Of a stretch of 57,909 bases of DNA, positions 22,201 to 28,281 are shown in pieces. The position numbers were made by a program, and so were the translations under genes. The notes beneath the pieces are model-generated. The model saw nothing but the letters and a program-made list of their open reading frames with translations, did not search any database and was not told the origin of the DNA. The stretch is from Phenylobacterium sp. (lineage in GTDB: Bacteria; Pseudomonadota; Alphaproteobacteria; Caulobacterales; Caulobacteraceae): positions 1 to 57,909 of the forward strand of contig NZ_JAUYQL010000023.1 in NCBI RefSeq assembly GCF_030697305.1, written 5' to 3'. How positions within the stretch are numbered: position 1 is the first letter of the stretch; each line of letters starts with the position of its first letter.

Positions 22201-24969
22201 TCAGGTCTCGTCGGTCGCCTCGGGCTCGTCGCCCTCCGCCACGTCGTCCTCCGGCTCTTCGCCAGCGTCGGCCAGCCGTTCCACGGACACCACATGCTCG
22301 TCCTGGGCGGTGCGGAAGATGGTGACGCCCTGGGTGTTGCGTCCGGCGATCCGCACCTGGCTGACAGGCGTGCGGATCAACTGTCCGGCGTCGGTGACCA
22401 GCAGAAGCTGATCGCCATCGTCGACCGGGAACGAGGCCACCAGCCGCCCCCCGCGCTTGGTCAGGTCGTGGGCGATGAGCCCCTGCCCGCCGCGGCCCGT
22501 CCGCCGGTAGTCGTAGGCCGATGTGCGCTTGCCGAAGCCTTCGGTGGACACCGTGAGGATGAACTCCTCGGCCGCGCCCAGCTCGGCGATCCGCTCGACG
22601 CTGAGCGAGGTCATGCCTTCGCCTTCGGCCTCTTCCTCATCGGGAACCACGGCCTCTTCCGGCTCGCCGCTCTGGGCGGCCAGCATGGCCTTCTCGTGCC
22701 GCAGATAGGCGATGCGTTCGGCGGGCGTAGCGTCGACGCCGCGCAGGATGGCCATCGAGATCACCGAGTCTCCCTCGGCCAGGCGCACGCCGCGCACGCC
22801 GGTGGACTCGCGGCCGGCGAACACCCGAACCTCGTCGACTGCAAAGCGGATGCAGCGACCGAGCGCGGTGGTCAGCAGCACGTCGTTGGCGGTGGTGCAG
22901 ACGCCCACCCCCATGATCGCGTCGCCCTCATCGAGCTTCATGGCAATCTTGCCATTGCGGTTGATCTGCACGAAATCCGACAGTTTGTTGCGCCGCACAC
23001 CGCCCGAGCGGGTGGAGAACATCACGTCGAACTGGTCCCAGGTCGCCTCGTCCTCGGGCAGTGGCATGATGGAGGTGATGGTTTCGCCGGGTTCGATGGG
23101 CAGCAGGTTGATGAACGCCTTGCCGCGTGAGGTCGGCGTGCCGACCGGCAGGCGCCACACCTTGAGCTTGTAGACCTTGCCCCCGGACGAGAAGAACAAC
23201 ACCGGCGTGTGGGTGTTGGCCGAGAACACCCGGGTGACGGCGTCCTCTTCCTTCGTCGACATGCCCGAACGGCCTTTGCCGCCGCGATGCTGGGTCCGAT
23301 AGGTGGCCAGCGACGTGCGCTTGACGTAGCCCGAGTGGGTCACGGTGATCACCATGTCCTCGCGGGTGATCAGGTCCTCGTCCTCGACGTCGGCGTCGCC
23401 TTCGACGATCTCTGTCCGCCGCGGCACGGCGAAGGCGGCGCGGACCTCGGTCAGCTCCTCGCGCACCACCGCCATGATCCGGTCGCGCGACGACAACATC
23501 TCCAGGTGACCGCTGATCGTATCGGCCAGCGCACGCGCCTCGCCGAAGATCTCGTCGCGGCCAAGGCCCGTGAGCCGCGACAGCGTCAGCGCCAGAATGG
23601 CGCGGGCCTGTTCTTCCGTCAGGCGCACGCGGTCGCCGCCGACAAGTTGGGTCCGCGGATCGGCGATCAGCGCGATCAGGGGCATCATGTCGCCCGCCGG
23701 CCAGTCGCGGGCGACCAGGCGCTCGCGCGCCTCGGTCGGATCCTTCGACGATCGGATGATGTGGATCACATCGTCGATGTTGGCGACGGCGATGGCCAGA
23801 CCGACCAACACGTGGCCGCGGTCGCGCGCCTTGTTGAGCTCGAACTTGATGCGCCGCACGACGACTTCCTCGCGGAAGTCGACGAAGGCCTTGAGCATCG
23901 TGTGCAGGCCCATCTGCTCGGGCCGGCCACGGTTCAACGCCAGCATGTTGACCCCGAACGAGGTCTGCAGGGGCGTGAAGCGATAGAGCTGGTTCAGCAG
24001 CACCTCGGCCGAGGCGTCGCGCTTCAGCTCGACGACCACACGCATGCCGTCGCGGTCGCTTTCGTCACGCAGGTCGGAAATCCCGTCGATGCGCTTCTCG
24101 CGCACGAGTTCGGCGATCCGCTCGACGAGGGCGGCCTTGTTCACCTGATAGGGAATCGCCGTGATGATGATCGCTTCGCGATCCTTGCGGATCTCTTCGA
24201 TGGCGGCCTTGCCGCGCATGATCACCGAGCCCCGGCCGCCCATCAGCGCCGCCCGGGCGCCGGTGCGCCCGATGATTTCGCCGCCGGTCGGGAAATCCGG
24301 TCCCGGCACGATATCCAGCAGGTCTTCCTGGCTGATCTCGGGATTGTCGATCAGGGCCAGACAGGCGTCGACGATCTCGCCCAGGTTATGCGGCGGGATG
24401 TTGGTGGCCATGCCGACGGCGATGCCGCCCGCGCCGTTGACCAGCAGGTTGGGGATCCGCGACGGCAGGACCGTCGGCTCGCTCTCCGAGCCGTCGTAGT
24501 TCTCCTTGAAGTCGACGGTGTCCTTGTCGAGGTCGGCCAGGATCGACATCGAGGCCTTGGTCAGGCGGCACTCGGTGTAGCGCATCGCGGCCGGCGGATC
24601 GTTGTCGACCGAGCCGAAGTTCCCCTGGCCGTCGATCAGCAACAGACCCATGGAGAACGGCTGGGCCAGCCGCACGAGGGTGTCGTAGATCGCGGTGTCG
24701 CCGTGCGGATGGTATTTGCCCATCACGTCGCCGACCACGCGGGCCGACTTCACATAGGAGCGATCCGGCGTGTGCCCCTGCTCGTTCATCGAGAACAGGA
24801 TGCGCCGGTGCACCGGTTTCAGCCCGTCACGGACGTCCGGCAGCGCGCGGCTGACGATGACGCTCATGGCGTAATCGAGGTAGGAGCGCTTGAGCTCGTC
24901 CTCTATGGCGATAGGAGCGATGTCCCCGCGCCGGCCGTCGTCCGGAGGGGTCGTGGTTTCGTCGGTCAA
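22201..24969 (-). CDS. gyrA: DNA gyrase subunit A
   Basis: [33 protein letters not shown]...[23 protein letters not shown]; 922 aa. Confidence 0.98.
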
Positions 24970-25078: not shown

Positions 25079-25609
25079 ATGAGACTGATCGCCCTCAGCA
25101 TCGCCGCCATTCTCGCGGCGGGCGCCGCCGTTGCGGCCGATTCGCCGACCGCCGTGACCGTGGATGTGAAGAACGCCGCCGGTGACAGCCTGGGCCAGGC
25201 GACGATCACCCAGGCTCCGAACGGCGTCCTGGCGCGCTTCCAGCTCAAGGGGCTGACGCCAGGCTGGCACGGGCTGCATTTCCACGAGAAGGGCGACTGC
25301 TCGAAGGCCGACTTCACCAGCGCCGGCAGCCATGTCCACGACAAGGCGACGATCGTCCACGGCCTGCTGAACCCTGACGCCAACGATTCCGGCGACCTGC
25401 CGAACCTGTACGCCGGCGCCGACGGGACCGCGACCGCCGAGGTCTTTTCCCCGTACGTGACGTTGTCCAACTCGACGGGGCGGCCGAAGCTCGCCGACGC
25501 TGACGGCTCGGCCATCGTGGTCCACGCGTCTCCCGACGACTATCGCACCCAGCCGATCGGCGGCGCCGGCGCGCGCATCGCATGCGGTGTGATCGCCCCC
25601 GGCGCCTGA
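25079..25609 (+). CDS. sodC: Cu/Zn superoxide dismutase family protein
   Basis: Signal peptide; GWHGLHFHEKGDCSKADFTSAGSHVHD...GDLPNLYAGADGTATAEVF...SAIVVHASPDDYRTQPIGGAGARIACGVI. Confidence 0.92.
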   Translation: MRLIALSIAAILAAGAAVAADSPTAVTVDVKNAAGDSLGQATITQAPNGVLARFQLKGLTPGWHGLHFHEKGDCSKADFTSAGSHVHDKATIVHGLLNPDANDSGDLPNLYAGADGTATAEVFSPYVTLSNSTGRPKLADADGSAIVVHASPDDYRTQPIGGAGARIACGVIAPGA

Positions 25610-26670
25610 TGTCGCTGATCCTAGGGGAGCCGGCGCCGTGGTTCACCGCGGCGACGCCTTCGAACCCGGAGTTCGCCCTCGACACAGCGGGCGGCCGCTT
25701 CGTGCTGCTGTGTTTCCTGCCCCCGGCGCCTGAGGCGCGCGGTCCGGCCATGCGTGCGGTTGCCGCCCGCCAGGCGCTGTTCGACGACGCGCGCGCTTGC
25801 GTCTTCTTCGTCGTGCCGCAGGCCCATCAGCCCGGCGCCCGCGACCTGCGCGGGCTTCGCTGGTTCCTCGACGAAGACGGCGCGGTCGGCCGGCTCTATG
25901 GCGGGCTGGAGGCGGACGGTTCCGCACGGCCCCGGTGGGTGCTGCTCGATCCATCGATGCGGGTGCTCTCGATCGCGCCGATCGATCGAGCGGAAGCCGT
26001 CATCGACCAGGTCGCCGCCCTCCCCGCGCCCGGCGATCACGCTGGCGTCGCCCTGCACGCGCCCGCCCTGGTCGTCCCGAGGGTGTTAGAGCCCGAACTC
26101 TGCGCCCAGTTGATCGCCCTGCATGAAGCCGACGGCGGCGCATTCACCGGCGTCATGCGCGACATCGACGGCCGTACGGTCGCGGTCATGGACGAAGCCA
26201 AGAGCCGGCGCGACATCTGGATCCACGACGAGGCCTGGCAGGTAACGCTGCACGGCGCACTCGAGAGCCGCCTCTTCCCGATGCTCCAGCGCGCATTCCA
26301 GTTCGAGGCCGCGGGGATCGAGCGCTATCTGGTCAGCCGCTACGCCGCCGAGGAAGGCGGCGTCTTCCGCGCCCATCGGGACAACACGACCAGGGGTACC
26401 GCGCATCGGCGGTTCGCCTGCACCATCAACCTCAATGACGACTACGAAGGCGGCGACCTGCGCTTTCCTGAATTCGGCCCCGGGCTCCACCGTGCGCCGG
26501 TGGGCGGGGCTGTAGTTTTCTCCTGCTCGCTGCTGCACGAGGTGACGCCGCTGACGCACGGCCGACGCTATGCGTTCCTGCCGTTCTTCTATGATGCTGC
26601 GGGCGCAGGCGTGCTGGCCGACTATCGCGCCACCCTGACCGAAGGGGATGCGAGCCAAGACCAAGCCTGA
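25609..26670 (+). CDS. redoxin-like N-terminus fused to 2OG-Fe(II) oxygenase (prolyl-4-hydroxylase-like)
   Basis: ATG at 25609 overlapping the sodC stop; C-terminal HRDNTT...LLHEVTPLTHGRRYAFLPF = HxD...H...R core; N-terminus LILGEPAPWFTAATPSNPEFALDTAGGRFVLLCFLPP resembles AhpC/TSA. Confidence 0.85.
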   Translation: MSLILGEPAPWFTAATPSNPEFALDTAGGRFVLLCFLPPAPEARGPAMRAVAARQALFDDARACVFFVVPQAHQPGARDLRGLRWFLDEDGAVGRLYGGLEADGSARPRWVLLDPSMRVLSIAPIDRAEAVIDQVAALPAPGDHAGVALHAPALVVPRVLEPELCAQLIALHEADGGAFTGVMRDIDGRTVAVMDEAKSRRDIWIHDEAWQVTLHGALESRLFPMLQRAFQFEAAGIERYLVSRYAAEEGGVFRAHRDNTTRGTAHRRFACTINLNDDYEGGDLRFPEFGPGLHRAPVGGAVVFSCSLLHEVTPLTHGRRYAFLPFFYDAAGAGVLADYRATLTEGDASQDQA

Positions 26671-26735
26671 TCTGGCGCAAGCGGCGCGCCATTGGCTAAA
26701 ATGCCCGCCGGTTCGGGCAAATGGGGGCGGGACAG

Positions 26736-27791
26736 ATGGGTCTGGGTTTCGGAGAGGCTGCGCCCTACTTCGCCGGCGACACGGCCGCCAATCCGCGCTT
26801 CCAGTTCTCCTCCGTCGCCGGGCGTTTTGTGCTGCTGGGCTTCGCGCCGCCGAATGGGGCGCCGGTTGCATTGGATATGTTCCAGCGACGTCGGGCGCGT
26901 TTCGACGATATCAACCTTGTCTGCTTCATCGTCGCCGGCGACCAGGCGACGATCGCCCAGGCCGTAGACGAAACGCCGGGCCTAAGATGGTTCCGCGATC
27001 CGTCCGGCGCGATCGCCGAGGCCTATGGCGAGGCGCCTGACTCGGGCCGCTGGCTGTTGCTGGACCCGACATTGCGGGTGATAGCCGCCCTGCCGTGGGG
27101 CTCCGCCGACGCTCTGCTGGAGCAGATCGACGCCCTGCCGGCGCCCGACCTGCACTCCGGAGCCGATATCCACGCACCCGTGCTGATCGTACCCCGCATC
27201 TTCGAGCCAGACATCTGCCAGCGCCTGATCGCCCACTACGACGCCGTGGGCGGCGCACGATCCGGCGTGATGCGCAACATCGACGGCAAGACCGTCGGGG
27301 TGATCGACAACTTCAAGAGCCGCCGCGACGCCGACGTCACCGACGAGGCGTTTCGCCAGCAACTGCGGATCCGACTGGCGCGACGGCTGGTTCCGGAGAT
27401 CAAAAAGGCGTTCCAGTTCGATGTCACCCGCATGGAGCGCTACATCGTCGCCTGCTACGACGCCGGCGAAGGCGGCTATTTCCGTCCACACCGCGACAAC
27501 ACCACCCCCGGCACCGCGCATCGCCGCTTCGCGGTGACTATCAACCTGAACGCTGGTGATTATGACGGCGGCGATCTGCGCTTCCCCGAGTTCGGATCGC
27601 GGGCTTATCGCGCGCCGACCGGCGGGGCTGTGGTGTTCTCCTGTTCGCTGTTGCATGAGGCGCTGCCCGTCACGCGCGGGCGCCGTTACGCTTTCCTGCC
27701 GTTCCTCTACGACGAGGCGGGCGCGCAGATCCGTATCGCCAATCAGGCCACGATCGTGAACGAGGCGCAGCCCGCCGAGGTGGACGGCTGA
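26736..27791 (+). CDS. redoxin-like N-terminus fused to 2OG-Fe(II) oxygenase, tandem paralogue
   Basis: Same architecture as the preceding gene: MGLGFGEAAPYFAGDTAANPRFQFSSVAGRFVLLGFAPP...FRPHRDNTTPGTAHRRFAVTINLN...SCSLLHEALPVTRGRRYAFLPF. Start 26721 or 26736. Confidence 0.85.
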   Translation: MGLGFGEAAPYFAGDTAANPRFQFSSVAGRFVLLGFAPPNGAPVALDMFQRRRARFDDINLVCFIVAGDQATIAQAVDETPGLRWFRDPSGAIAEAYGEAPDSGRWLLLDPTLRVIAALPWGSADALLEQIDALPAPDLHSGADIHAPVLIVPRIFEPDICQRLIAHYDAVGGARSGVMRNIDGKTVGVIDNFKSRRDADVTDEAFRQQLRIRLARRLVPEIKKAFQFDVTRMERYIVACYDAGEGGYFRPHRDNTTPGTAHRRFAVTINLNAGDYDGGDLRFPEFGSRAYRAPTGGAVVFSCSLLHEALPVTRGRRYAFLPFLYDEAGAQIRIANQATIVNEAQPAEVDG

Positions 27792-27840: not shown

Positions 27841-28281
27841 ATGAAAAGACCTCTCGTCGCCGGCCTTCTGGGCCTGTCGATCGCCGCCGGCCCCCTGAGC
27901 GCCAGCGCCGCCGAACTCATCCAGCCGGGCTATTGGGAATCCACCAACCGGATGCTGTCGCCCATTCCCGCCAAGAGCGTGGAGCGGCGATGCATCACGC
28001 CGGCCGACGTCGCCAAGTTCCTGATGGGCCCCAGCAACCGCCACTACGCCTGCACCTACCCGACCCGCAGCTTCGAAGGCGGCAAGATCCTGCTCAAAGG
28101 GAGCTGCGTCAGCAAGAAGGGCCGGCGCGTCCAGGTCGAAGGTCAGGGGAGTTACTCCCAGACCAGCTTCAGTCTCACCGCGCAGGTGGCGACCGAGTTC
28201 TCCGGCATCCCGATCGCCGGCAAGGTGCGCACCGAAGCCAAGCGCATCGGCGACGCCTGCCCGGCGCCCGCCGCGAGCTGA
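27841..28281 (+). CDS. DUF3617-like exported protein
   Basis: MKRPLVAGLLGLSIAAGPLSASAAELIQPGYWESTNRMLSPIPAKSVERRCITPADVAKFL...CTYPTRSFEGGKILLKGSC; DUF3617-like 'pGyWe...rCit' pattern. Confidence 0.7.
   Translation: MKRPLVAGLLGLSIAAGPLSASAAELIQPGYWESTNRMLSPIPAKSVERRCITPADVAKFLMGPSNRHYACTYPTRSFEGGKILLKGSCVSKKGRRVQVEGQGSYSQTSFSLTAQVATEFSGIPIAGKVRTEAKRIGDACPAPAAS

Follow-up and report, generated by a model that had tools for sequence, protein, structure and literature searches.

A family of redoxin-like/2OG-Fe(II) oxygenase fusions without a peroxidatic cysteine, encoded as a tandem pair in Phenylobacterium

Collagen prolyl 4-hydroxylase is a eukaryotic α2β2 enzyme in which the α-subunit needs a thioredoxin-fold partner, the PDI subunit, to be soluble and catalytically competent (PMC9676403). 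In the crystal structure, the PDI cysteines make intersubunit disulphides (PMC9676403). The likeness to the bacterial proteins described here is one of analogy and not of relationship by fusion, as PDI is a subunit of its own and keeps CGHC motifs in both of its catalytic thioredoxin-fold domains. Closer in sequence and fold is PiuC/YbiX (PRK05467; PDB 9ghl, 9qn4 and 3dkq), the best solved match, which shares the double-stranded β-helix oxygenase and the Fe/2OG residues but, unlike the fusions, has no redoxin domain. HIF PHD2 and the Pseudomonas putida P4H, an EF-Tu hydroxylase, share the fold and the active-site layout at 16-21% identity and also lack a peroxiredoxin-like domain. The N-terminal domain of the fusions is homologous throughout to the Bcp/AhpC-type peroxiredoxins (PF00578; PDB 2ywn and 3drn), yet it has no peroxidatic cysteine, and the motif Pro/Thr and the distal Arg of these enzymes are unconserved. 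The parts are of known kinds; the variant, which merits a search for its substrate, lies in a cysteine-less peroxiredoxin stably joined to a prolyl-hydroxylase-type domain. No prior description of a redoxin/2OG-oxygenase fusion was found in a search of the open-access literature.

The tandem locus and its slot in Caulobacteraceae

We analysed a 57,909-nucleotide stretch of DNA from Phenylobacterium sp. (the window), in which two adjacent paralogues of one architecture had been predicted downstream of sodC. Both open reading frames were as described, and their products share 54% identity over 350 aa (E 1e-118). A search of the genome revealed two fusion copies, the tandem pair only. The features of the locus are as follows.

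22201..24969, minus strand: gyrA, conserved left border of the locus
25079..25609, plus strand: sodC, exported Cu/Zn superoxide dismutase, 5' of fusion gene 1 (PF00080, 4.8e-38)
25609..26670, plus strand: fusion gene 1, 353 aa; redoxin-like domain at about residues 1-140, 2OG-Fe(II) oxygenase domain at about 150-335
26736..27791, plus strand: fusion gene 2, 351 aa, same architecture as fusion gene 1
26736..27155, plus strand: redoxin-like domain of fusion 2, with Ala45 in the peroxidatic-Cys column
27489..27497, plus strand: codons of H252-R253-D254, HxD Fe ligands of fusion 2; H252 and D254 invariant in 96 homologues
27654..27656, plus strand: codon of H307, third Fe ligand of fusion 2, invariant
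27684..27686, plus strand: codon of R317, predicted 2-oxoglutarate-binding Arg of fusion 2, invariant
27841..28281, plus strand: DUF3617 exported protein (PF12276, 1e-15), third gene of the conserved FUS-FUS-DUF3617 unit

The predicted overlap of fusion gene 1 with sodC was confirmed: the sodC stop and the ATG of fusion gene 1 share one base in TGATG at 25607-25611. For fusion gene 2 an upstream ATG at 26721 is also possible, although the homologue alignment makes 26736 the likelier start. The exported DUF3617-like protein predicted after the tandem was likewise found. Reading of the N-termini by eye identified signal peptides on SodC and the DUF3617 protein and on neither fusion. The window SodC has Asp at the position of the canonical Zn-ligand His, so that, in a comparison by eye, the canonical Cu/Zn SOD motif H-x-G-D reads D-S-G-D here; the sodC-linked homologues have Asp or Glu at the same position.

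In Caulobacteraceae the fusion occupies a conserved slot between gyrA, on the opposite strand, and ssb, and gyrA adjoins in 32 loci. Two arrangements were observed in this slot, sodC-FUS in about 12 genomes from three genera of the family and FUS-FUS-DUF3617 in about 23 genomes of the genus of the window. The window was the only locus seen in which sodC, the tandem and DUF3617 occur together. The two fusion genes overlap by 4 bases in 12 of the 23 tandem junctions and by 1 base in 7, DUF3617 lies 22-129 nt 3' of the fusion in 24 loci, and the sodC-FUS gaps are mostly 34-95 nt, all of these lengths depending on the start codons that we chose. In a phylogenetic tree the first tandem copies, including copy 1 of the window, form one clade (T1; 23 rows, support 100/99), and the second copy of the window is less firmly placed. 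Because the first copies form a single clade, the tandem duplication is probably old in the genus, and FUS-FUS-DUF3617 appears from these sequences to be an old operon of Phenylobacterium. The sodC-FUS pair looks like the older arrangement, and sodC would since have been lost from most tandem loci. In about 11 relatives FUS-FUS-DUF3617 is followed by a compact tryptophan 2,3-dioxygenase-like gene (263 aa; L130:3069-3857 and about ten other loci), which is not present in the window.

A degenerate redoxin-like domain fixed to a conserved oxygenase core

Taken singly, the two fusion sequences match AhpC-TSA below the cut-off (15.8 and 17.5 bits against 26), but across the family the match is clear. 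When members were searched singly at a lenient threshold, 48 of 51 N-domains matched PF00578 (best E 6.8e-13). A profile built from the 51 N-domains matched peroxiredoxins in the PDB, the best being 2ywn (4.1e-10), followed by several Bcp proteins. Alignment by hhalign to five peroxiredoxin-family proteins of the same genome gave 97.4% probability over 122 columns. These results bear out the proposed redoxin-like N-terminus and support a domain of the thioredoxin/peroxiredoxin type, homologous to peroxiredoxins over its whole length.

The absence of a peroxidatic cysteine, noted originally from the two window sequences, persisted after proper alignment to peroxiredoxins. The peroxidatic column (Ala45 of protein 2) holds Ala in 59 and Cys in none of the 96 homologues. 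Of the PxxxT/SxxC motif, the Pro (column 38) was present in 20 and the Thr/Ser (column 42) in 9, and the distal Arg (column 104), present in 17, is not conserved either. The motif was also absent from the printed sequences of more distant relatives (200-280 bits). With Cys missing from this column in all 96 homologues and no motif in those distant sequences, loss of the cysteine is ancestral to the whole fusion family and no quirk of the window's genome. No conserved Cys was found anywhere in the redoxin-like N-domain in the family alignment. An alternative redox cysteine in this part was considered and rejected; the commonest column (residue 35, Cys in 41 of 96) lies in a predicted β-strand and is unconserved.

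The oxygenase domain, by contrast, is strongly maintained, and the predicted intact HxD...H...R core was borne out. Both fusions exceed the Pfam cut-off for PF13640 (44 and 47.6 bits against 27), and H252, D254, H307 and R317 are invariant in the 96 homologues. K194, R196, E234, R235, H262 and R263 are invariant as well, as is C161 in the homologue alignment, with C303 nearly so. Mean pairwise identity is 37% for the N-domain and 63% for the oxygenase domain, indicating that the N-domain evolves faster. If only the oxygenase is catalytic, slower change would be expected there, and the two values fit this expectation.

The full length of fusion 2 was modelled with AlphaFold on an alignment of the 96 sequences, which gave a mean pLDDT of 94.6 and a pTM of 0.90. 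The model presents the fusion as one rigid two-domain protein. Its N-terminal elements are strand 13-15, helix 24-27, strand 31-37, helix 42-51, strand 61-67, helix 70-75, strand 83-87, helix 92-96, strands 105-109 and 114-120, and helix 124-132; read from the order of the elements, and not by structure search, this succession matches a peroxiredoxin/thioredoxin fold. Prediction of the N-domain by itself from its single sequence was of low quality (pLDDT 50). Among the matches listed by Foldseek for the whole chain there were only oxygenases and hydroxylases. The best were the PKHD oxygenase 3dkq, PiuC, PHD2 (in several entries bound to HIF peptide) and the Pseudomonas P4H-EF-Tu complex, and an E of 1e-11 supports the double-stranded β-helix fold of the oxygenase half.

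Distribution and genomic neighbours of the family

One scan of species genomes detected 126 relatives, of which the best 80 include members from Caulobacteraceae, Acetobacteraceae, Azospirillaceae, Rhizobiales, Rhodobacterales, sphingomonads, β-proteobacteria, Planctomycetes and Cyanobacteria, as judged from record titles. Of 299 genomes sampled from the window's family, 124 carried the fusion, as did 19 of 399 in a phylum sample. RefSeq names the plasmid copies merely '2OG-Fe(II) oxygenase'. The fusion is thus a widespread, generically annotated protein family that is not special to the genome of the window. A mobile or viral origin was rejected, as a single viral contig of the collection gave a relative and the loci are stable chromosomal slots. 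Three fusions are split in two frames (L040:1766-2986, L044:60-1256 and G032:C3:440393-441456), consistent with frameshift or sequencing error.

One genome, G785 (completeness estimate 100%), encodes a stand-alone oxygenase (L223:1480-2118, minus strand) directly 3' of trxB. The N-domain profile detected no redoxin domain in this gene or elsewhere in the genome. We rejected the idea that relatives commonly lack the redoxin part, because G785 has the sole stand-alone copy in its family and the other matching members have longer frames.

The neighbourhood of the fusion differs among lineages. In four genomes outside the window's family trxB lies just 5' of a fusion-family gene, and in five loci SoxY, SoxZ and a sulfide-dehydrogenase flavoprotein are encoded beside it. 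In four Mesorhizobium/Rhizobiaceae loci, whose ribosomal genes we named by reading their sequences, rpsM-rpsK-rpoA-rplQ lies 5' of the fusion on the same strand and a DegP-like protease lies 3'. In Niveispirillum the fusion gene adjoins ECF sigma/FecR genes and a TonB-dependent receptor gene. No single common partner emerged among 76 operon-like neighbours outside Caulobacteraceae, and the recurrent redox neighbours are suggestive without naming a single substrate. In three of the four Mesorhizobium/Rhizobiaceae loci (L035:5169-5840, L060:5233-5910 and L072:5229-5897) the interval from rplQ to the fusion contains a gene for an ankyrin-repeat protein, apparently with a signal peptide. Ankyrin repeats are known substrates of 2OG hydroxylases in animals, and this neighbour is a substrate lead.

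These neighbourhoods bear on the proposal that the tandem belongs with sodC in an oxidative-stress-linked system. The tandem is conserved and the sodC neighbour is real in three Caulobacteraceae genera, but most tandem pairs within the family have no adjoining sodC. Near the fusion, sodC was absent from all non-Caulobacteraceae loci examined. The link to oxidative stress does not hold as a general rule; it is local, because other lineages have trxB, rplQ-degP or sox neighbours, and SodC is exported while the fusions are not. The sodC neighbour therefore tells of function only weakly.

A probable hydroxylase with a proposed non-catalytic redoxin module, and its alternatives

Computation establishes the architecture, the family-wide cysteine loss, an oxygenase core that is conserved, a model with two rigidly joined domains and an operon that has been maintained. 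We think it on balance probable that the fusion is active in the cytosol as a hydroxylase of proteins or peptides, with the redoxin domain as a fixed, non-catalytic scaffold or docking module. Each gene would encode a cytosolic Fe(II)/2-oxoglutarate-dependent hydroxylase of the prolyl-hydroxylase/PKHD type. The N-domain would descend from a Bcp/AhpC-type peroxiredoxin that lost its peroxide chemistry, and may now be a fixed module for structure, oligomerisation or substrate docking. The domain would act like the PDI subunit of collagen prolyl 4-hydroxylase, but within one chain, an analogy that is imperfect because the PDI cysteines form intersubunit disulphides. The original prediction had offered a dead redoxin as scaffold or sensor; the scaffold is favoured, because the model is of a rigid two-domain protein, and the sensor is less so. 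Retention of the fusion across phyla, with one redoxin-free copy seen, supports a kept module. Against it, that G785 copy suggests that the N-domain is dispensable, and the variation of neighbours by lineage outside Caulobacteraceae also counts against this reading.

A possible but doubtful alternative is that the enzyme resembles PiuC/YbiX and hydroxylates a small molecule, for example a siderophore, an amino acid or another metabolite, with the redoxin domain as an oligomerisation piece only. The solved structures matched by sequence are PiuC-type chains only, such PKHD oxygenases are also among the top Foldseek matches, the weak NCBIfam matches of the fusions are all to PRK05467, and the Niveispirillum neighbours point the same way. 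To our knowledge the natural substrate of PiuC is not established as a protein, and, PiuC being the nearest solved oxygenase by sequence, this counts against a protein substrate. However, the fusions fall far below the PiuC/YbiX equivalog cut-off (38 bits against 143 for the best model), PiuC has no redoxin domain, and iron-uptake genes are missing from most neighbourhoods.

A redox or peroxide sensor, in which the redoxin fold or C161/C303 gates the hydroxylase under oxidative stress, would account for the proximity of sodC (about 12 genomes, three genera) and of trxB (four genomes) and for the conservation of the two cysteines. We consider it unlikely, as the redoxin part has no conserved Cys and none in the peroxidatic column, SodC is exported while the fusion is not, and most fusion neighbourhoods have no sodC. 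Unlikely, too, is a hydroxylase of the translation machinery comparable to YcfD, OGFOD1 or the Pseudomonas prolyl hydroxylase, with EF-Tu or a ribosomal protein as its target. The fold match to the P4H-EF-Tu complex and the position 3' of rpsM-rpsK-rpoA-rplQ in four loci are consistent with it, but that position is confined to one lineage, the Caulobacteraceae slot is gyrA-ssb, and a housekeeping slot may just reflect stable inheritance.

Returning to the favoured reading, we tentatively raise the possibility that bacteria have a widespread and as yet uncharacterised system for hydroxylating proteins, with a degenerate peroxiredoxin as the permanent substrate-recruiting or assembly domain of a prolyl-hydroxylase, a single-chain counterpart of PDI-P4H. 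Few 2OG hydroxylases in bacteria act on proteins, mostly with unknown substrates. Through the FUS-FUS-DUF3617 operon conserved in Caulobacteraceae, the reading is open to testing by deletion and proteomics. A family of this size, whose redoxin domain is fixed and catalytically dead, is a clear case in which to ask how a peroxidase fold comes to be reused as a scaffold.
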